From assembly GCF_025399835.1 (NCBI RefSeq), contig NZ_JAODVR010000001.1, forward strand, positions 2,294,001-2,358,000: a stretch of 64,000 nt of DNA, written 5' to 3'. The notes beneath the pieces were generated by a model, which was not told where the DNA came from, searched no databases, and saw only the letters and a list, made by a program, of their open reading frames with translations. The DNA comes from Haloarchaeobius sp. HME9146 (GTDB taxonomy: Archaea; Halobacteriota; Halobacteria; Halobacteriales; Natrialbaceae). Positions 4,338 to 16,130 of the stretch are shown here, in pieces. The position numbers and the translations under genes are program-made. The number at the start of each line of letters is the position of its first letter. The first letter of the stretch is position 1.

Positions 4338-4565
4338 GACGGTAGAGTCGCCCCCTTCCACGGCGACGAGAATTATTCCTCCCGGGTGGGGCGTGCCGAC
4401 TCGCGTGCTGAAAGCCGCGAGTCATCTGCTCGAAAGCGGTACTATCGCTGGGAACGTTCGAACTGGAACAGCAACAGCCACGTGCGTTTCCACCCCCTCT
4501 CATTCCGAATCACCGACACAAACACCAAGACAGATGCCCGACAACCGGCGTACGATTACTCTGAC

Positions 4566-7500
4566 ATGGTGGCTGGACTCGACATCGGGACGGAGACACT
4601 GACGGCGGCACGAGGCGAGGGCGGGGACGCGACACTTGCCACGAGTGTGGCATCGGTCGTCGAGGTCCCGCATGGGACACTCACTGACGCCGGGTTCGAC
4701 CCGGCCGACCTCTGCTGTCTCGAACGCGGCGACACCGTATCGATACTCGGCGACGACGCGGCCGAGGTCGCCGACGCGACCGGAACAGACACGGAACCCC
4801 TCTTCTCGAACGACGTGGTGATTCCCCGCGAGGACGACGCGGCACTGGTGGGCGCGCTCGCGGACGACCTGCTGGCGGGCGACGACGAGGAATCCGTCTG
4901 TTTCACGACACCGGGCCGCTTCCTCGACGCGGACGAACCGACGACGGACCACCGCAAGGCCGTCTCGGAGGGTCTCTCCGGGGAAGGCTACGAGCCGACC
5001 CCGCTGAACACCGGCCTCGCGGTCCTCTACGACGCACTCTCGGACGGGAACTACACCGGCCTCGGGGTGGCGGTCCGCCCCGCCGTCACCACCGTCTGTC
5101 TGGCCTTCTACGGCGTCCCAGTCCTCGGGTTCTCGCTGGCGAGGGGACGTGACTGGCTGGTCGAGCAGGCGGCCGACGCGAGTGGGGAATCGGTCGAGAC
5201 GGTCGCCGCGGCCCGCGACGAGTTCACGCTGGGGCTGGACACGAGTTCCGAGGGCGTCGACGGCGCACTCGCCGACGCCTACAACGAACTCCTCGGGGAC
5301 GTTGCCGAAGCGGTCCAGCGCGAGGCCGACGAGAGCGACCTGCAGTCGGGCATCGCCGCGACGGTCGTCGTCGCCGGCAGCGGGAGCGTCCCGGGCATGG
5401 AGATGCTCCTCGGCGCACAGCTCGACGCTGCTCCCCTCCCGTTCTCGGTCGGCGACGTCAGGATGGCCGACGACCCGGCGAACAGCGCAGCACTCGGCGC
5501 GCTCGCGGCCGCCGAGTCCGGCATCGACGGCTACGAAGGAATCGCAGCGAGCGAGGAGGACGAGTCCGGCGACGACGGCCGTGGCGACGACGAGGGCCTC
5601 GCACAGCAGACCCTGTCGGGGGCGGCCGCGACAGCGGGCAGTGCCGGTGCTGGCACCCAGCACTCCGGCAGTGCCAGCCCGCCTGCCCGCGGCGACCCCG
5701 ACGATGACTCATCGAACCGCGCCATCGAGCAGATGTTCGAGCGCCTCGGGAACCGCGAGGACGAGATCGCCAGCATCCGCGAGGACCTCGATGCGGCCGC
5801 AGCCGACCTCGACGCACTCTCGGAGTCGGCCGCCCGCGAGGACGACCTCGAATCCCTCTCGGCGACGGTCGAAGCCCTCGACGAGGCGCTCGACGACCTG
5901 GACGACGCGCTGAGCGACCTCGATAGCCGGGCCGCGGCGGCGACCGACCTCGACGCGCTGGCGGACGACCTGTCCTCACTCCGTGACGACCTCGGCGAAC
6001 TGGCCGAGGAAGCCGCGACTGACGCCGAGCTCTCCGCGGCCGAAGACACGCTGGCGACCGTCGAGGACGACCTCGAATCGCTGCAGGAGACCACCGCGAC
6101 ACGGGAGTCGGTCGACTCGCTGGGCGACACGGTCACCCACCTCGAGACCGCGCTTGACGACCTCTCCGAAAGCCTCTCCGCGCTCTCGGACCGGGCGGCC
6201 GATGCCGAGACGGTCGAAGGACTGGACGAGACGGTATCGACTCTCGAGGGGACCGTCGAGACGCTGGACGCCGAGGTCGCCGCCCTCCGCGACGACCTGG
6301 CCGCCCTCGACGAGGCGAGTGCCACCGTGGACGACCTGGCCGCCCTCGACGCGACGGTGGACGACCTCTCGGCCGACTTGGCCGAACTCGACGAACGCGC
6401 CGCCAGCGAGTCGGCCCTCTCCACGGTCGCGGACGACCTGTCGGACGTGAGCACGGCGGTCGACGAGGTGGCCGACGACCTCGACGCACTCGATTCTGCA
6501 ACCGAGGACCTGAGTGCCCGACTCGACGAGGGAGATACCGAGCGCGCGTCGAACGCCGCCGACATCGAGACGCTATCTGGCGACATCGAGACGCTGACCA
6601 CCGGCCTCGATTCCGTGGAGGACACGGTCGGAACCCTGTCGGGAGACCTCGAATCGCTCGACGACGACGTGACTGCAGTTCGTGCGGACGTCGATACCGT
6701 CTCTGCGGCCCTCGACGAGGCTGAAGGCCGACTCGACCAGCTCGACGACACGGCGGCCACCACGGACGAGGTCGCCTCTGTCTCGCAGGACCTCGCGGCA
6801 CTCGCCGAGCGAGTGGAGGCGCTCGCTGCCGACGGCGCGACCGACGACGACCTGCAGGCGCTCCGGTCCGACGTGCTGGAGGCCGACATGGCCCTGGCAG
6901 ACCTGCAGGAGACGGTCTCCCGACTCGAGACCGACGGTGCAGACGCGGCGACGGTCGACGCCCTCGAGGACCGTGTTTCGGGTATCGAGGCGTCTATCGA
7001 GGCAGTCGAGTCGGAGCTGTCGACCGTGGATTCGGCGGTTTCCGACGTCGACTCGGCCGTCACCGACCTGGACTCGGACGTCTCGGAACTCGATACCCGG
7101 CTGGCCGACCTCGACTCGACGGTGGCCACGGTGGACGAGGAGGTCGCGGCGGTCGACACGCGGGTCTCTGAGATGGCGTCGGAGATGACCGCGGTAGAGA
7201 ACGCGGCTGCCGACGCCGAGACCGTCGACGAACTCGAGGCGACCGTACGCGAGACCCGTGCCACCGCGAGCGACCTCGAAGCCGAACTCGACTCGGTCCG
7301 TGACCGACTCGACACGCAGGCGGACGCCGGCCCGTCTTCCGACGACCTCGACGACCTCGCTGCCGACCTGTCCTCGCTGACGGAGGACCTCTCGACACTC
7401 CAGGCGACCGTCGAGGAACTCGAAGCGGCGGTGGACTCGACTGACGAGGAGCCCGCAAGCACCGAGGAGGTGGCCGCGCTGGCGACCCGGCTGGAAGACG

Positions 7501-8078
7501 CGACGGGCGACGATGTCCTCGCTGCCGAGGTCGAAGGGCTGGAGGACTCCCTCTCGACACTCTCGGAGCGCCTCGACGACCTCGAAGACGAGGCGACGGG
7601 CCGGGCCGACCTCGAAGCGACGGTCGCAGACCTTGAGGACGAACTCTCCACACTCGAATCGTCGGTCGTGACGGCGGAGGACCTCGACAGCCTCGAAGAG
7701 AAGATGGTCACGCAGGGCGCGCTGGATTCCAGGGATTCGGACGTCGTGACAGCCGACGAATTCGACGAGTTCCGGTCGTCGGTCGCGACGGCGGACGACC
7801 TCGCGGCCCTCCAGCGGTCGGTAGACGAACTGCGTGAGTCCTCGCGTGACCGGTCGGCAGAGCCCGCGGTCGAGGCGGGCGACACCACCGGCTTCTTCGA
7901 CCGCTTCGGCGTCGGGTTGGGCGGCGGCGCTGTCATCGCGGGTATCCTCACCATCGCCAACTCGGTCACCGGTGACGCGATAGCGATGGCTGTCGGTGCG
8001 GGTGCTCTCGTCCTCGGCCTCGCCCTCGTCGGCCTCGTCTACCGGGGCACCGACAGGAGCATGCCAGCAAAAGAGTAA
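4566..8078 (+). CDS. Actin/Hsp70-like N-domain fused to a giant coiled coil and C-terminal membrane anchor
   Basis: A 1170-residue, strongly acidic protein in three parts. Residues about 1-325 look like an actin/Hsp70/MreB-type ATPase domain: phosphate-1-like GLDIGTETLTAAR at the N-terminus and an adenosine-loop-like VVAGSGSVPGMEMLLG near residue 267. The expected phosphate-2 loop (DxGxGTTD) is represented only by VAVRPAVTTVCLA, so the usual acidic residue is missing. Residues about 326-383 are a Gly/Ser/Asp linker. Residues about 385-1105 are near-uninterrupted heptads of D/E-D-L and A-T-x-x-D-L modules, almost certainly a coiled coil. Residues about 1116-1162 form two membrane helices, and the tail is short and basic. 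The ATG giving MVAGLDIG is chosen because the fold starts there. A membrane-tethered cytoskeletal or cell-shape role is inference only. Confidence 0.8.
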   Translation: MVAGLDIGTETLTAARGEGGDATLATSVASVVEVPHGTLTDAGFDPADLCCLERGDTVSILGDDAAEVADATGTDTEPLFSNDVVIPREDDAALVGALADDLLAGDDEESVCFTTPGRFLDADEPTTDHRKAVSEGLSGEGYEPTPLNTGLAVLYDALSDGNYTGLGVAVRPAVTTVCLAFYGVPVLGFSLARGRDWLVEQAADASGESVETVAAARDEFTLGLDTSSEGVDGALADAYNELLGDVAEAVQREADESDLQSGIAATVVVAGSGSVPGMEMLLGAQLDAAPLPFSVGDVRMADDPANSAALGALAAAESGIDGYEGIAASEEDESGDDGRGDDEGLAQQTLSGAAATAGSAGAGTQHSGSASPPARGDPDDDSSNRAIEQMFERLGNREDEIASIREDLDAAAADLDALSESAAREDDLESLSATVEALDEALDDLDDALSDLDSRAAAATDLDALADDLSSLRDDLGELAEEAATDAELSAAEDTLATVEDDLESLQETTATRESVDSLGDTVTHLETALDDLSESLSALSDRAADAETVEGLDETVSTLEGTVETLDAEVAALRDDLAALDEASATVDDLAALDATVDDLSADLAELDERAASESALSTVADDLSDVSTAVDEVADDLDALDSATEDLSARLDEGDTERASNAADIETLSGDIETLTTGLDSVEDTVGTLSGDLESLDDDVTAVRADVDTVSAALDEAEGRLDQLDDTAATTDEVASVSQDLAALAERVEALAADGATDDDLQALRSDVLEADMALADLQETVSRLETDGADAATVDALEDRVSGIEASIEAVESELSTVDSAVSDVDSAVTDLDSDVSELDTRLADLDSTVATVDEEVAAVDTRVSEMASEMTAVENAAADAETVDELEATVRETRATASDLEAELDSVRDRLDTQADAGPSSDDLDDLAADLSSLTEDLSTLQATVEELEAAVDSTDEEPASTEEVAALATRLEDATGDDVLAAEVEGLEDSLSTLSERLDDLEDEATGRADLEATVADLEDELSTLESSVVTAEDLDSLEEKMVTQGALDSRDSDVVTADEFDEFRSSVATADDLAALQRSVDELRESSRDRSAEPAVEAGDTTGFFDRFGVGLGGGAVIAGILTIANSVTGDAIAMAVGAGALVLGLALVGLVYRGTDRSMPAKE

Positions 8079-8944: not shown

Positions 8945-9679
8945 CTAGTACCCCTCGACGTCGCCGAGGTCGTTCTTGACGAGTCGTTCCTTGCCGATGA
9001 AGCGCGGGCGCTTCTCGACCGCGAGGAAGTTGTCCACGTCCGCGCGGGCCTTCGCGGCGACCTCGCGTGTGGGGTCGTAGTCTCTGGAGCCCTCACTCCC
9101 GAGTGCCTCGTGGAGGTCGTCGAGCGTCTCGAAGTAGAGCTCGGCGACGCCGTCGAACTCGGCGTTCTCCGGGTCCGTCGGATAGACGGTCTGGTAGCGA
9201 ACCACGCCTTCGATATCCTTGGCGAGGGGCGAGTGGTTGTTCTCCCAGTAGTCGCGGAACTCCTCGTGGGTCATGCCGTCCTTGCGGACGAGGAAGGCCG
9301 AATGTTTGTAGAGGCCGTCTGTGTCGCCGGCTACCTCGTCCTTCCAGATCTTCTCCTCCCCGATGAACCGGGGTCGTCGCTCGATGTCGAGGAAGTTGTT
9401 CACGTCCTCGCGGGCCTTGGCAGCGACCTCGCGTGTGGGGTCGTAGTCTCTGGAGCCTTCACTCCCGAGTGCCTCGTGGAGGTCGTCCAGTGTCTCGAAG
9501 TAGAGTTCGGCCAGTCCATCGAACTCGGCGTTCTCCGGGTCCGTGGGGAGGACCGTCTGGTAGCGGACCACGCCCTCGATATCTCTCGCGATGGGCGTGT
9601 GGTTGTTCTGCCAGTAGTCGACGAACTCCTCGTGGGTCATATCGTCCTGTCTGACCAGCAGCGCGATGTGTTTGAACAT
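8945..9679 (-). CDS. Tandem-duplicated EthD-domain protein
   Basis: A 244-residue protein made of two copies of a 122-residue EthD (dimeric alpha-beta barrel) domain. Each copy starts with a strand plus D-x-M-T-H-E-E-F-x-D-Y-W and the family motif NNHxP, followed by GVVRYQTV, LYFETLDDLHEALGSE and RPRFIG. EthD proteins accompany degradation pathways such as ether oxidation, but their reaction is unclear; the fold also includes antibiotic-monooxygenase and muconolactone isomerase-like enzymes. The fused pair would form the usual two-barrel unit intramolecularly. The copies are highly similar at DNA level with a 366-nt offset. The TATA-like GTTTTATGC (plus-strand 9705-9713) is about 30 nt upstream. 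The gene heads an operon with the HD gene. Confidence 0.9.
   Translation of the reverse strand: MFKHIALLVRQDDMTHEEFVDYWQNNHTPIARDIEGVVRYQTVLPTDPENAEFDGLAELYFETLDDLHEALGSEGSRDYDPTREVAAKAREDVNNFLDIERRPRFIGEEKIWKDEVAGDTDGLYKHSAFLVRKDGMTHEEFRDYWENNHSPLAKDIEGVVRYQTVYPTDPENAEFDGVAELYFETLDDLHEALGSEGSRDYDPTREVAAKARADVDNFLAVEKRPRFIGKERLVKNDLGDVEGY
9063..9540. repeat. Intragenic direct DNA repeat, unit 366 nt
   Basis: The segment from 9063 is repeated from 9429 with only scattered substitutions over more than 110 nt, including runs of over 30 identical bases. The offset of 366 nt equals exactly half of the EthD gene. This shows a recent or concerted duplication inside the coding sequence rather than an inserted element. 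Confidence 0.8.
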
Positions 9680-11227: not shown

Positions 11228-13267
11228 ATGTCCGCACTACCACTGGTCTCAGGTGCAGCCATCCTCGAACAGCTCGTCAACGGGCTGACCGTCGGGATGG
11301 TGTACGTCCTCCTCGCCGCCGGACTGTCGATCATCTTCGGCGTGATGGACGTCATCAACTTCGCGCACGGGGAGCTGTTAGCCCTGGGCGCGTACCTCGC
11401 GGTCGCCCTCTCGACGGCCGGCATCGGCAACTTCTGGGTCGCGTTGCTCGTCGCACCGCTCGCGGTCGCCGTCCTGGGTGGCGCGATGGAGCGGCTGACC
11501 ATCCGCCCGCTGTACGGCCGGAACCCGCTGTACCACATCCTGTTGACGTTCGGGCTGGTGCTCATCTTCGTCGACGCCATCGAGTTCGTCTGGGGGCCAC
11601 AGCCACTGAGTCCGCTCGACACCGGCTCGCTGGCTGGTCCCGTGACGATACTCGGCGCGACGAACACGCTCTACAGCTACTTCGTCATCGCCGCCGGCGC
11701 GCTCGTCGCGGCCGGTACGTGGCTCATCCTCGAGAAGACGCGGTTCGGGCTCGTCGTCCGTGCCGGGTCGATGGACCGCGGCATGGTCCGTCACCTCGGC
11801 ATCGACATCGACCGCTACTACACGCTCGTGTTCGCGTTCGGTGCGTTCCTGGCCGCCGTCGGCGGGGTCGTCCTCGCCGGGCGGCAGCCGGTCGGTCCCG
11901 GGATGGGTGGCTCGGTCATCATCCCGGCGTTCATCGTCGTCGTGCTCGGCGGCCTCGGCAGCTTCCGCGGGGCGGTCGCGGGTGGCCTGCTCGTCGGCGT
12001 CGTCCAGACGCTGGTGCGCTGGCAGCTCCCGTTCCTCGAGGGACTGGTCGTCTTCCTGCTGATGATCGGCGTCCTGCTGGTCCGTCCGCAGGGACTGTTC
12101 GGCAGCCCGGAGTGGCACGACCCCGGCGAATCTGGGGGTGAACTACTCACCGGTGCTGGCGGTGGCGTCCTGACACCGGAGCAACGCAAGTACCTCGGCC
12201 TGGGACTCGTGGGCTTGCTCGCGCTCGCGCCACTCGGTATCGGCGTCGTGTGGGGGTCGTTCTTCGTGAACACCTTCCTCGTGGAGATCCTCATCTGGGC
12301 GCTGTTCGCGCTCAGTCTCGACCTCGTCATGGGCTACACCGGACTGGTGTCGCTCGGCCACGTGCTGTTCTATGGGGTCGGCGCGTACGCGACGGTCCTG
12401 TTCGCGCTGTACCTCATCCCGTCGTTCTGGCTGGCGCTGCTGGCCGGCATCGTGGTCGCGGGGCTCATCGCCTGGCTGGTCGGGTACCTGTCCATCCGGG
12501 TCTCCGGCGTGTACTTCTCGATGATCACGCTGGCGTTCGCGGAACTGTTCGCCAGTCTCGCCGTGAAGATGCCGGGCCTGCGTGCGGAGTTCAACCCGTT
12601 CCTCGCGTCCATCGGCCTCCCGACCATCCCGCCCCTGACCAACGGGGAGGACGGTATCGGGGCCGAGGCGCTGTACTACGGCCTGACCTCCGGCCCGGAG
12701 TTCGGTGACGTCTCGCTGCTCGGTGAGATCACCCTGAACTACTACGTCATCCTCGCGCTGGTCGTCGGTTCGTACTTCGTCGCGCGGCGGCTCATCGACG
12801 CCCCCTTCGGGAGCGTCCTGCAGGCCATCCGCGAGTCCGAACAGCGTGCGTCGTTCCTCGGCTACGACACGACCGCGTACAAGCGCCGGGCGTTCGTCGT
12901 CAGTGGCGCGCTCGGCGGGCTGGCCGGCGGGCTGCGCGCGACCCAGACCCTGGGTCGGTCGTCCCCCGGCTTCCTCGACTGGCTCCTCTCCGGCGAGGTC
13001 ATCGTCATGACCCTGCTGGGCGGGATGGGGACCCTCTACGGCCCGATGATCGGGGCTGCCGGGTTCATCTCGCTGGAGGAACTGCTGCTCGAACAGGGAA
13101 TCGACTACTGGCAGGGCGTCCTCGGCGTCGTGTTCGTCCTGTTCGTCGTCTTCGTCCCGCGCGGACTCGTCTCGGTGCCGTCGCTGCTCAAGCAACGCCA
13201 GCAGACGATGTCCTCGGGCGGTGAAGGCGGCTCTCCCGACGCGGAACCCACGGAGGTGAGTGACTGA
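11228..13267 (+). CDS. Fused LivH-LivM-type ABC transporter permease
   Basis: A 679-residue membrane protein joining both permease subunits of a Liv-type importer. Residues about 1-292 are LivH-like, with the motif VMDVINFAHGELLALGAY and several membrane helices. A hydrophilic Gly/Glu-rich linker covers about 293-325. Residues about 326-650 are LivM-like, with SLDLVMGYTGLVSLGHVLFYGVGAY split over its first helices and the EAA-like loop RESEQRASFLGYD that contacts the ATPases. The acidic C-terminal tail ends 1 base into the next gene. Separate LivH and LivM genes occur elsewhere in this window (32428-33384 and 31308-32414), so the fusion is specific to this system. It is translationally coupled to the ATPase gene (TGATG overlap). 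Confidence 0.92.
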   Translation: MSALPLVSGAAILEQLVNGLTVGMVYVLLAAGLSIIFGVMDVINFAHGELLALGAYLAVALSTAGIGNFWVALLVAPLAVAVLGGAMERLTIRPLYGRNPLYHILLTFGLVLIFVDAIEFVWGPQPLSPLDTGSLAGPVTILGATNTLYSYFVIAAGALVAAGTWLILEKTRFGLVVRAGSMDRGMVRHLGIDIDRYYTLVFAFGAFLAAVGGVVLAGRQPVGPGMGGSVIIPAFIVVVLGGLGSFRGAVAGGLLVGVVQTLVRWQLPFLEGLVVFLLMIGVLLVRPQGLFGSPEWHDPGESGGELLTGAGGGVLTPEQRKYLGLGLVGLLALAPLGIGVVWGSFFVNTFLVEILIWALFALSLDLVMGYTGLVSLGHVLFYGVGAYATVLFALYLIPSFWLALLAGIVVAGLIAWLVGYLSIRVSGVYFSMITLAFAELFASLAVKMPGLRAEFNPFLASIGLPTIPPLTNGEDGIGAEALYYGLTSGPEFGDVSLLGEITLNYYVILALVVGSYFVARRLIDAPFGSVLQAIRESEQRASFLGYDTTAYKRRAFVVSGALGGLAGGLRATQTLGRSSPGFLDWLLSGEVIVMTLLGGMGTLYGPMIGAAGFISLEELLLEQGIDYWQGVLGVVFVLFVVFVPRGLVSVPSLLKQRQQTMSSGGEGGSPDAEPTEVSD

Positions 13268-14064
13268 TGGCGACCAGCGAACAGGAGACGAAATCGTTCG
13301 ACTCGGGCGACCCCGTGCTCGAGACGAAGAACCTGACCCGCCGGTTCGGCGAACTCGTCGCGACCGACGACCTCACGCTGGAGGTCCAGGCGGGCGAGTT
13401 CCGGAGCATCATCGGCCCGAACGGGGCGGGGAAGACCACCCTGTTCAACCTCATCTCGGGCGCACTGCTCCCGAGTGACGGGTCGATACTGTTCCAGGGT
13501 GAGGACGTCTCACAGCTCCCGCCGAACCAGCGCGTCCGCAAGGGAATCGGGCGGTCGTTCCAGATAACGAACGTCTTCGGCGGACTCACGGTGCGAGAGA
13601 ACGTCCGCCTGGCCGCACAGGCGACCCTTCGTGAGCGCTCTGTCGTGGAGAACTTCTTCGGTAACAAGGACTCCTTCGACGACCTGAACGAGCGGACCGA
13701 CGACGTGCTCGGTCGCATCGGCCTCGACGGCCGTGGCGACGAGCGCGCGTCGACGCTCGCGTACGGTGACCGTCGCCGGCTGGAGATCGGCCTCGTGCTG
13801 GCGACCGACCCCGACCTCGTCATGCTCGACGAGCCCACCGCGGGCATGAGCGCCGAGGAGACGCGTGCGACGATGGAACTCATCAGCGACGTCCTCGCCG
13901 ACAAAACCGTGTTGCTCATCGAACACGACATCGAACTCGTCATGAACGCATCGGACCGAATCACCGTCCTCAACCGTGGGTCGGAACTCGCGACCGGCGT
14001 GCCGGAGGCGGTCGCCGCGAACGACGAGGTCCAGCAGGCCTACCTCGGTGGTGGTGTGCTGTGA
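13267..14064 (+). CDS. livG: ABC transporter ATP-binding protein, LivG-type
   Basis: A 265-residue cytosolic ATPase of the Liv importer. It shows Walker A GPNGAGKTT, a Q-loop, the LivG-type degenerate signature LAYGDRRRLEIG, Walker B LVMLDEPTAGM and the switch His in LLIEHDIELV. An N-terminal extension of about 17 residues precedes the nucleotide-binding domain. The ATG overlaps the stop of the fused permease gene by one base and its own stop overlaps the GTG of livF by four, so all are one polycistronic unit. Confidence 0.95.
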   Translation: MATSEQETKSFDSGDPVLETKNLTRRFGELVATDDLTLEVQAGEFRSIIGPNGAGKTTLFNLISGALLPSDGSILFQGEDVSQLPPNQRVRKGIGRSFQITNVFGGLTVRENVRLAAQATLRERSVVENFFGNKDSFDDLNERTDDVLGRIGLDGRGDERASTLAYGDRRRLEIGLVLATDPDLVMLDEPTAGMSAEETRATMELISDVLADKTVLLIEHDIELVMNASDRITVLNRGSELATGVPEAVAANDEVQQAYLGGGVL

Positions 14065-14780
14065 GCTTCCTCGAACTCGAGAACGTCCACGGTGGCTACG
14101 GCGAGACGGAGGTCCTCTCGGGCGTCACGCTCGACGTCGAAGAGGGCGAGGTCGTCTCGCTCGTCGGCCGGAACGGCGTCGGCAAGACGACGACCCTGCG
14201 AAGCGTCGTCGGCGTCGTCGACCCGGTCAAGGGGTCGATCCACTACCAGGGCGAGGACATCACGGGTGCCTCCTCGGAGGACGTGGCCCGGAAAGGCATC
14301 GGCTTCGTTCCGGAGGAACGTCGCGTGTTCCCGGGACTGACCGTCACGGAGAACCTCCGGATGGGCAACTTCGGCGGCAGCGACACGGCACACCGTCGCT
14401 CCGTCGAGGACATCTGGGAGCTCGACGCCTTCGAGAACCTCCGCGAACGCAAGGACAGCCGCGGTGCCGACCTCTCCGGCGGGGAGCAACAGATGCTCTC
14501 CATCGCCCGGGCGATGGTCGCCGGTGCGGACCTGCTGTTGCTCGACGAACCGACCGAGGGGCTCGCCCCCATCATCGTCGAGCGCGTCGCCGACCTGGTG
14601 ACCGAACTCAACGAGGAGGGCATCTCGGTCCTGCTCGTCGAGCAGAACGTCGCCGTGGCGAGCAAGCTCGCCGACCGGGTGTTCATCCTCGACAAAGGCG
14701 AGATCGTCTACGAGGGCACTCCCGAAGAACTGGACGAGAACGACTCCGTGCGCGACAGGCACCTCGGGGTGAGCATCTGA
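14061..14780 (+). CDS. livF: ABC transporter ATP-binding protein, LivF-type
   Basis: A 239-residue second ATPase of the Liv importer, starting at GTG inside the end of livG (GTGA overlap). Walker A GRNGVGKTT, signature LSGGEQQML, Walker B LLLLDEPTEGLAP and switch VEQN are intact. In this transporter class LivG and LivF pair as a heterodimer under the two permease halves. The phenylacetate-CoA ligase gene starts 57 nt downstream on the same strand. Confidence 0.95.
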   Translation: MSFLELENVHGGYGETEVLSGVTLDVEEGEVVSLVGRNGVGKTTTLRSVVGVVDPVKGSIHYQGEDITGASSEDVARKGIGFVPEERRVFPGLTVTENLRMGNFGGSDTAHRRSVEDIWELDAFENLRERKDSRGADLSGGEQQMLSIARAMVAGADLLLLDEPTEGLAPIIVERVADLVTELNEEGISVLLVEQNVAVASKLADRVFILDKGEIVYEGTPEELDENDSVRDRHLGVSI

Positions 14781-14837
14781 CAGGGCCGCCTGTCGGCACC
14801 TGAATCGATTTACAGACACGAAACACTGGTTCAACAC

Positions 14838-16130
14838 ATGGTCTACAACGACATCGAAACCGCAGCACGAGAGGAAGTCACAGCAGTGCAGAACGAACGC
14901 CTTCGCGAGACCGTCGAGCACGTCTACGAGAACGTGCCGTGGTACCGCGAGCAGTTCGAGGAGGCGGGCATCACGCCCGACGACATCGAGTCGCTCGACG
15001 ACATCACGAAGCTCCCCTTCACCACGAAGGAGGACATCCGCGACAACTACCCGACCGACCTGTTCGCGGTCGACCGGAGCGAACTGCGTCGCATCCACGC
15101 CTCCTCGGGCACCACGGGCAAGCCGAAGATCGTCGGCTACACCGAGGACGACCTCGGCGTCTGGCGCGAGGTCATGGCGCGCTCGCTCAAGGCGGGCGGT
15201 GTCGACCCGGGCATGATGGTCCAGAACGCCTACGGCTACGGGCTGTTCACGGGCGGTCTCGGCTTCCACGACGGCATCCAGGAGCTCGGCGCGTCCGTCA
15301 TCCCGACCGGCGGTGGCAACACGGCCCGCCAGCTCGACATGCTGCAGGACCTCGAATCGGACGTGCTCTGTTGCACGCCGTCGTACTGCCTCTACCTCGC
15401 CGAGCAGGCCGAGGAACGCGGGATGGACCTCCGCGACCTGCCCCTCTCGCGGGTCGTCATCGGGGCCGAACCGTTCACCGACCCCATGCGCGAGGAGATC
15501 GAGGAAGCCCTCGGCGTGACCGCGGTCGACGTGTACGGCCTCTCCGAGATCATCGGCCCGGGCGTCTCCATCGAGTGCGCCGAGGCCCAGGACGGCCTGC
15601 ACCTCTGGGAGGACCACTTCTACCCCGAGGTCCTCGACCCCGAGACGGGCGAACCCGTCGAGGAAGGCGAGGAGGGTGAGCTGGTCATCACCTCGCTCAC
15701 GAAGCAGGCCCTGCCCATGATCCGCTACCGCACCGGCGACATGACCCGACTGAACTACGACACCTGCGAGTGTGGCCGCACGATGGTCCGGATGGACAAC
15801 ATCACCGGCCGCTCGGACGACCTGCTCATCATCCGTGGTGTCAACGTCTACCCGAGCCAGATCGAGGAGGTCATGCTCGACATGGAGGACGTGGCGCCGT
15901 ACTACCGCATCGACCTCTACCGCAAGGGCAACCTCGACACCCTGGAGCTGACCGTCGAGCACCACGAGGACTACAACGGTACGCACGAGGAACTCGAAGC
16001 GGACATCGAGAGCAAGCTCAAGGACGTCCTCGACGTGAAGCCCGACGAGATCGAGGTCGTCGGCCCCGGCGTCATCGAGCGCACCGAGGTCGGCAAGGTC
16101 AAGCGCGTCTTCGACCACCGCGAGGAGTAA
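14838..16130 (+). CDS. paaK: Phenylacetate-CoA ligase family (PaaK-like acyl-CoA/AMP ligase)
   Basis: A 430-residue adenylate-forming enzyme that would activate phenylacetate or a related aryl or aliphatic acid to its CoA thioester using ATP. It has the phosphate loop SSGTTGKPK near residue 94, the PaaK-type N-terminus (VPWYREQFEEAG), and the C-terminal GRSDDLLIIRGVNVYPSQIEE-type hinge and lid, close to the usual PaaK length of about 430-440. The position directly behind a complete Liv importer suggests import followed by CoA activation of the same compound. No ring-epoxidase (paaABCDE) or beta-oxidation genes are in the window. The stop codon TAA lies in the loop of the first hairpin of the repeat array that follows. 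Confidence 0.9.
   Translation: MVYNDIETAAREEVTAVQNERLRETVEHVYENVPWYREQFEEAGITPDDIESLDDITKLPFTTKEDIRDNYPTDLFAVDRSELRRIHASSGTTGKPKIVGYTEDDLGVWREVMARSLKAGGVDPGMMVQNAYGYGLFTGGLGFHDGIQELGASVIPTGGGNTARQLDMLQDLESDVLCCTPSYCLYLAEQAEERGMDLRDLPLSRVVIGAEPFTDPMREEIEEALGVTAVDVYGLSEIIGPGVSIECAEAQDGLHLWEDHFYPEVLDPETGEPVEEGEEGELVITSLTKQALPMIRYRTGDMTRLNYDTCECGRTMVRMDNITGRSDDLLIIRGVNVYPSQIEEVMLDMEDVAPYYRIDLYRKGNLDTLELTVEHHEDYNGTHEELEADIESKLKDVLDVKPDEIEVVGPGVIERTEVGKVKRVFDHREE

Follow-up and report, generated by a model that had tools for sequence, protein, structure and literature searches.

A volactin paralogue with a long coiled-coil rod and a candidate membrane anchor in haloarchaea

Within the stretch of DNA analysed here (the window, 64,000 nucleotides from Haloarchaeobius sp. 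HME9146), an apparently monocistronic gene with an ATG start runs along the forward strand from position 4566 to 8078 and encodes a protein of 1170 amino acids. Its product opens with an actin-fold domain of the volactin type (residues 1-320, positions 4566-5525, + strand, as are all features below; assigned by PF25216, AlphaFold2 and Foldseek), followed by an acidic, Gly/Ser-rich linker (residues 321-381, 5526-5708) that is predicted to be disordered from its composition and pLDDT values of 30-41. A heptad coiled-coil rod comes next (residues 382-1093, 5709-7844), and a C-terminal hydrophobic hairpin, recognised by hydropathy and comparison with relatives and rich in G in its first segment, completes the chain (residues 1110-1162, 7893-8051). 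This order of head, acidic linker, coiled coil and C-terminal hydrophobic pair is the one described in the initial annotation, and the open reading frame bears it out. An epimerase gene stands about 230 bp 5' of the gene and the next 3' gene is convergent with it; these neighbours vary between genera, and no conserved operon partner of the long volactin was found among them. Elsewhere in the window, positions 8945-9679 encode a protein of two tandem EthD-type domains, which adjoins an HD-domain gene and is convergent with the long volactin gene, and positions 11228-16130 hold a branched-chain-type ABC transporter, one of whose open reading frames (679 residues) resembles a LivH-LivM fusion. 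A LivH-LivM-like frame of similar length occurs at loci L063-L065; in the window it is followed by two ATPase genes and then by a phenylacetate-CoA ligase-like gene.

The head (residues 1-316) matches the Pfam Volactin model PF25216 over its full length (model positions 1-321) with an E-value of 1.4e-99 and a score of 334 bits against a cut-off of 35; Volactin was the only family returned from Pfam, with no match to FtsA, PilM or GspL. Judged by its sequence, the head belongs to the volactin family, and hence among the known haloarchaeal actins; its compact paralogue is encoded elsewhere in the genome (C1:2098336-2099298, about 341 residues). At 1170 residues with rod and hairpin, the protein departs from the single-domain architecture of compact volactins, which span 341-369 residues. 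An AlphaFold2 model of the head, built from 30 sequences (pLDDT 92.9, pTM 0.91), displays the two-domain fold of the actin/Hsp70/MreB superfamily, and Foldseek comparison with the PDB, the fold search that had been set beforehand, placed BeeR (2.4e-12), MamK (3.6e-12) and MreB (6.5e-12) at the top, confirming the actin/MreB-like domain initially proposed. The TM-scores to these three structures, 0.56-0.65, indicate that the head is a divergent member of the actin/MreB fold. Fold search alone was informative here, as PDB sequence searches with the head, run as a single sequence or as a profile, yielded nothing useful. The salactin model NF053533 did not match the head at an E-value of 0.1, the sole match being a MamK model (E 0.0046), and a salactin match was likewise absent from the five related genomes tested.

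When volactins of both types, compact and long, are aligned with E. coli MreB (K-12 record), the comparison shows that the nucleotide pocket of the window protein retains little of the volactin signature. The phosphate-1 motif GLDIGTET (residues 4-11, 4575-4598), which had been read from the sequence at the outset, is intact; its Thr is often Pro in the long clade. The remainder of the proposed ATPase motifs is altered: Thr149 (5010-5012) occupies the site of the catalytic Glu143 of E. coli MreB; Arg-Pro-Ala replaces the compact-volactin GAG in the phosphate-2 hairpin (residues 165-177, 5058-5096, GLGVAVRPAVTTV); and Ser replaces the second Gly of GG in the adenosine-loop remnant AGSGSVPGM (residues 270-278, 5373-5399). 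These substitutions typify the long forms. Glu is present at the MreB Glu143 position in 54/54 compact volactins (11 outgroup and 43 haloarchaeal sequences, some of the latter near-identical) and in 0/49 long forms, where Lys (18), Arg (15) and Thr (12) take its place; the third phosphate-2 Gly is found in 54/54 compact versus 6/49 long forms, the second adenosine Gly in 54/54 versus 1/49, and the phosphate-1 Thr in 54/54 versus 15/49. From the active-site set that is invariant in volactins (phosphate-1 Thr/Asn, connect-1 Glu, phosphate-2 GxG and adenosine GG), the window protein keeps only the phosphate-1 Thr and the first adenosine Gly. Long forms of haloarchaeal family f7 preserve the phosphate-2 GxG and have lost phosphate-1, and the phosphate-2 Asp is missing even in compact volactins. 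Since the catalytic Glu, phosphate-2 Gly and adenosine Gly are all replaced, the original label of an actin-like ATPase is probably the wrong name for the long form; hydrolysis appears to have been lost or strongly weakened throughout the long clade, though ATP binding could persist.

A retained fold with eroded ATPase residues would also suit the main alternative to the reading that we favour, a tether for volactin filaments. Under that alternative, the protein is a membrane adaptor of the FtsA/PilM/GspL type, whose head docks some other cytoplasmic partner and engages no actin filaments, the rod and hairpin setting the distance. Foldseek does return PilM and FtsA for the head, albeit ranked under MreB and MamK; by sequence, however, the kinship of the head is with volactin, a filament former, and not with FtsA or PilM, and no neighbouring partner gene is conserved, so we consider an adaptor of this kind rather unlikely.

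Across the rod, hydrophobic residues recur with a period of 3.43 residues (spectral power 6.3, whereas none of 60 composition shuffles exceeds 1.5), proline accounts for 0.4% of residues, and the whole-protein AlphaFold2 model shows residues 382-1093 as helix with brief interruptions, in agreement with the long coiled coil first proposed. If the rod forms one continuous helix, its length would be about 100 nm. At its start, alignment of long forms reveals a conserved box (residues 384-408, 5715-5789, NRAIEQMFERLGNREDEIASIREDL), in which A386, F391, R393, L394 and R397 are invariant among 22 full-length long forms and dN relative to the nearest relative is about 0.016. At the opposite end, Kyte-Doolittle peaks at residues 1116-1134 (1.69) and 1139-1157 (2.39) mark two hydrophobic segments within about 1113-1160. 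Inspection of the C-termini of long relatives revealed a G-rich and then a hydrophobic segment in 40/40; relatives have AGGGGAGVVAGG in common, followed by the second hydrophobic segment, which stops a few residues before the end of the chain. The hairpin is a candidate membrane anchor: the two conserved hydrophobic segments of the initial annotation stand, whereas their insertion as membrane helices is a prediction, the C-terminus having a pLDDT of 28-41 and no usable membrane topology in the whole-protein model.

The rod makes up the bulk of the chain and gives weak scores with numerous coiled-coil families, which might suggest a scaffold resembling intermediate filaments or SMC proteins, in which the rod self-assembles and a degenerate head acts only as a regulatory cap. 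The Pfam and NCBIfam matches concerned (CENP-F, FlaC, SMC, EzrA and others) are mostly near or below their cut-offs and were set aside as generic heptad similarity, with Crescentin reaching 28 bits against a cut-off of 100 and the SMC and archaeal SMC-related models falling far under theirs. Conservation is also distributed in a manner that argues against a scaffold, being highest in the head, the rod-start box and the hairpin and lower in the rod itself, the length of which drifts fast (963 versus 1170 residues in total between proteins with 84%-identical heads). An unrelated coiled-coil protein of about 720 residues in the same genome (G000:C1 around 683254-685400, L171), with a counterpart at G234:C1 around 2288473 (L172), has a similar hydrophobic hairpin near its C-terminal side and a non-actin N-terminal domain, indicating that the layout is not unique to volactin; even with this example counted in its favour, a scaffold seems improbable. 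Among long forms generally, total length spans 575-1263 residues and the hydrophobic C-terminus is constant. This variability bears as well on the possibility that the heads polymerise by themselves into a membrane-attached filament with rods projecting sideways. Membrane-linked actin-fold heads could polymerise as MreB does, and some actin-fold proteins polymerise without hydrolysis, but the catalytic Glu and phosphate-2 Gly are lost, and a long, variable rod on every subunit would be superfluous for a self-contained membrane filament. We therefore regard an autonomous polymer as doubtful.

We surveyed 391 genomes of the class. A second volactin-family match is present in 76/101 same-family genomes with a match, leaving about a quarter without one, and the second volactins inspected in these genomes all lie in long frames (649 to 1564 codons), with the exception of genome G364. 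In that genome, the volactin matches are fragments only (query 109-318 and 1-85, separated by about 9 kb), and the copy may be broken or interrupted. In the Natrialbaceae group a second volactin is thus usually of the long form, and the same domain order recurs in a few other haloarchaeal families, among them f7 and f10 (780-909 codons). Carriers of the long form include Natrinema, Natronorubrum, Natrialba, Halovivax, Natribaculum, Halopiger, Haloterrigena and Halorubellus. Long open frames at some compact volactins of family f4 were rejected as further examples, as they consist of open frame 5' of the ATG and contain no rod. In a survey of the phylum, non-haloarchaeal genomes with an intact match carry compact volactins only, in frames of 326-371 codons; the presence of compact volactin well outside the Haloarchaea indicates that volactin predates haloarchaea. 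Identity between these proteins and the compact volactin encoded in the window's genome is 45-54%.

With 11 compact non-haloarchaeal volactins as the root, a maximum-likelihood tree groups every one of the 20 long forms sampled into a single clade (support 100/99). Its branch point lies next to or within the compact haloarchaeal volactins, which are themselves less firmly united (79/83). The simplest reading of this topology is that the long form arose once, by duplication within haloarchaea. Compact volactins are nearly frozen and the head of the long clade evolves fast: across genera, long-clade heads are about 37-49% identical to that of the window protein, which is itself about 36-38% identical to compact volactins. 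The head is nonetheless under purifying selection, the two closest heads giving dN 0.09 and dS 0.50 (dN/dS about 0.18).

The intergenic region 5' of the gene (4338-4565) carries ACAAACACCAAGACAG, common to the window and its nearest relative, near the position of a conserved promoter-like block in Natrialbaceae relatives. In those relatives (L066-L102), the block reads TTTTCA-NN-TCTGGTA...CCAAA...CCAAGAGGG and occupies positions of about -62 to -18 relative to the start codon of the long volactin, with the spacing from TCTGGTA to ATG fixed at 50-51 nt in 36 loci irrespective of the neighbouring gene; in the window (4480-4565) and its nearest relatives the block has diverged. The block has no Rfam match and differs from the promoter of compact volactin, which is conserved and TATA-like. 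It is single-copy in each genome and occurs at the long-volactin gene only, a pattern that speaks against a regulon sharing this element. The loss of nucleotide-pocket residues could in principle reflect decay of a functionless gene, but the gene is intact in dozens of genomes, its head evolves at the constrained dN/dS noted above, and the rod-start box, hairpin and upstream element are all conserved, making decay extremely improbable.

A hydrolysis-poor head that is rooted in the membrane through a flexible linker and a long rod would be well placed to tether, cap or nucleate paralogous filaments, and such a tether is more likely than an ordinary actin; the tethering or spacing role first suggested for the protein is to that extent reasonable. 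We accordingly propose, with a probability of roughly 0.4, that the long form is a hydrolysis-deficient paralogue which, tethered to the membrane, binds volactin filaments or caps them some distance away from it. The comparisons above show a duplication of volactin within haloarchaea, one copy staying compact and near-unchanging while the other acquired the heptad rod and C-terminal hairpin, lost most of the ATP-hydrolysis signature and stayed under purifying selection. In the proposed scheme, the hairpin would enter the cell membrane from the cytoplasmic side and the rod would pair, probably as a parallel dimer, so that two heads are held as far as about 100 nm inside the cytoplasm, where they would bind, cap or nucleate compact-volactin filaments of the same cell. 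Heads that do not cycle through ATP hydrolysis could then provide stable attachment while compact volactin polymerises and depolymerises. The more specific picture of a membrane-rooted pseudo-actin, hydrolysis-dead and dimeric, that serves as a long-armed, single-chain anchor for the filaments of its paralogue is put forward more tentatively still.

Dynamic filaments are known in vivo for the Haloferax volactin HVO_2015, and these reportedly span the cytoplasm and touch the membrane by their tips, the involvement of volactin-binding factors being suggested (PMC10869688). In Haloferax volcanii, no actin homologue other than volactin is reported to have been identified (PMC7617734). Tip-anchored filaments thus exist in a species in which volactin is the one actin homologue reported, so the long form cannot be the general volactin anchor.

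To our knowledge, no mechanism has been established for the membrane attachment of actin filaments in archaea. A conserved, apparently membrane-rooted, long-armed paralogue that is probably catalytically dead offers a concrete candidate for this attachment and, if the proposal is correct, would show how duplication can turn an actin into a fixed tether. Volactin itself is already known; in the sections consulted of some open-access papers that name it, located by keyword, neither the rod-hairpin fusion nor its distribution nor the missing active-site residues are mentioned, and the erosion of the ATPase signature in the long clade is new here.

Compared with known systems, the protein is nearest to volactin (VolA, HVO_2015, PF25216), whose entire family model is matched by its N-terminal 316 residues; compact volactins, at about 340-370 residues, lack the rod and hairpin and retain both the catalytic Glu and the phosphate-2 GxG that are lost here. 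MreB, MamK and BeeR are the nearest solved folds to the head, but have no rod, and MreB possesses the catalytic Glu and a phosphate-2 DIGGGT, both absent here. FtsA, PilM and GspL are actin-fold domains that serve as membrane adaptors, linked to the membrane through a partner protein, a single helix or one that is amphipathic; they belong to other families and have no 700-residue rod with hairpin. Salactin, the actin-fold filament protein of Halobacterium salinarum (PMC10746226), forms a separate family with a disordered N-terminal tail, in contrast to the C-terminal rod and hairpin of the long volactin. In the magnetosome network, the actin-like proteins MamK and Mad28 and the coiled-coil proteins Mad20, 23, 25 and 26 (PMC12748827) likewise bring actin-like and coiled-coil elements together at a membrane system, but there the components are named as individual proteins, whereas here they are joined in a single polypeptide.
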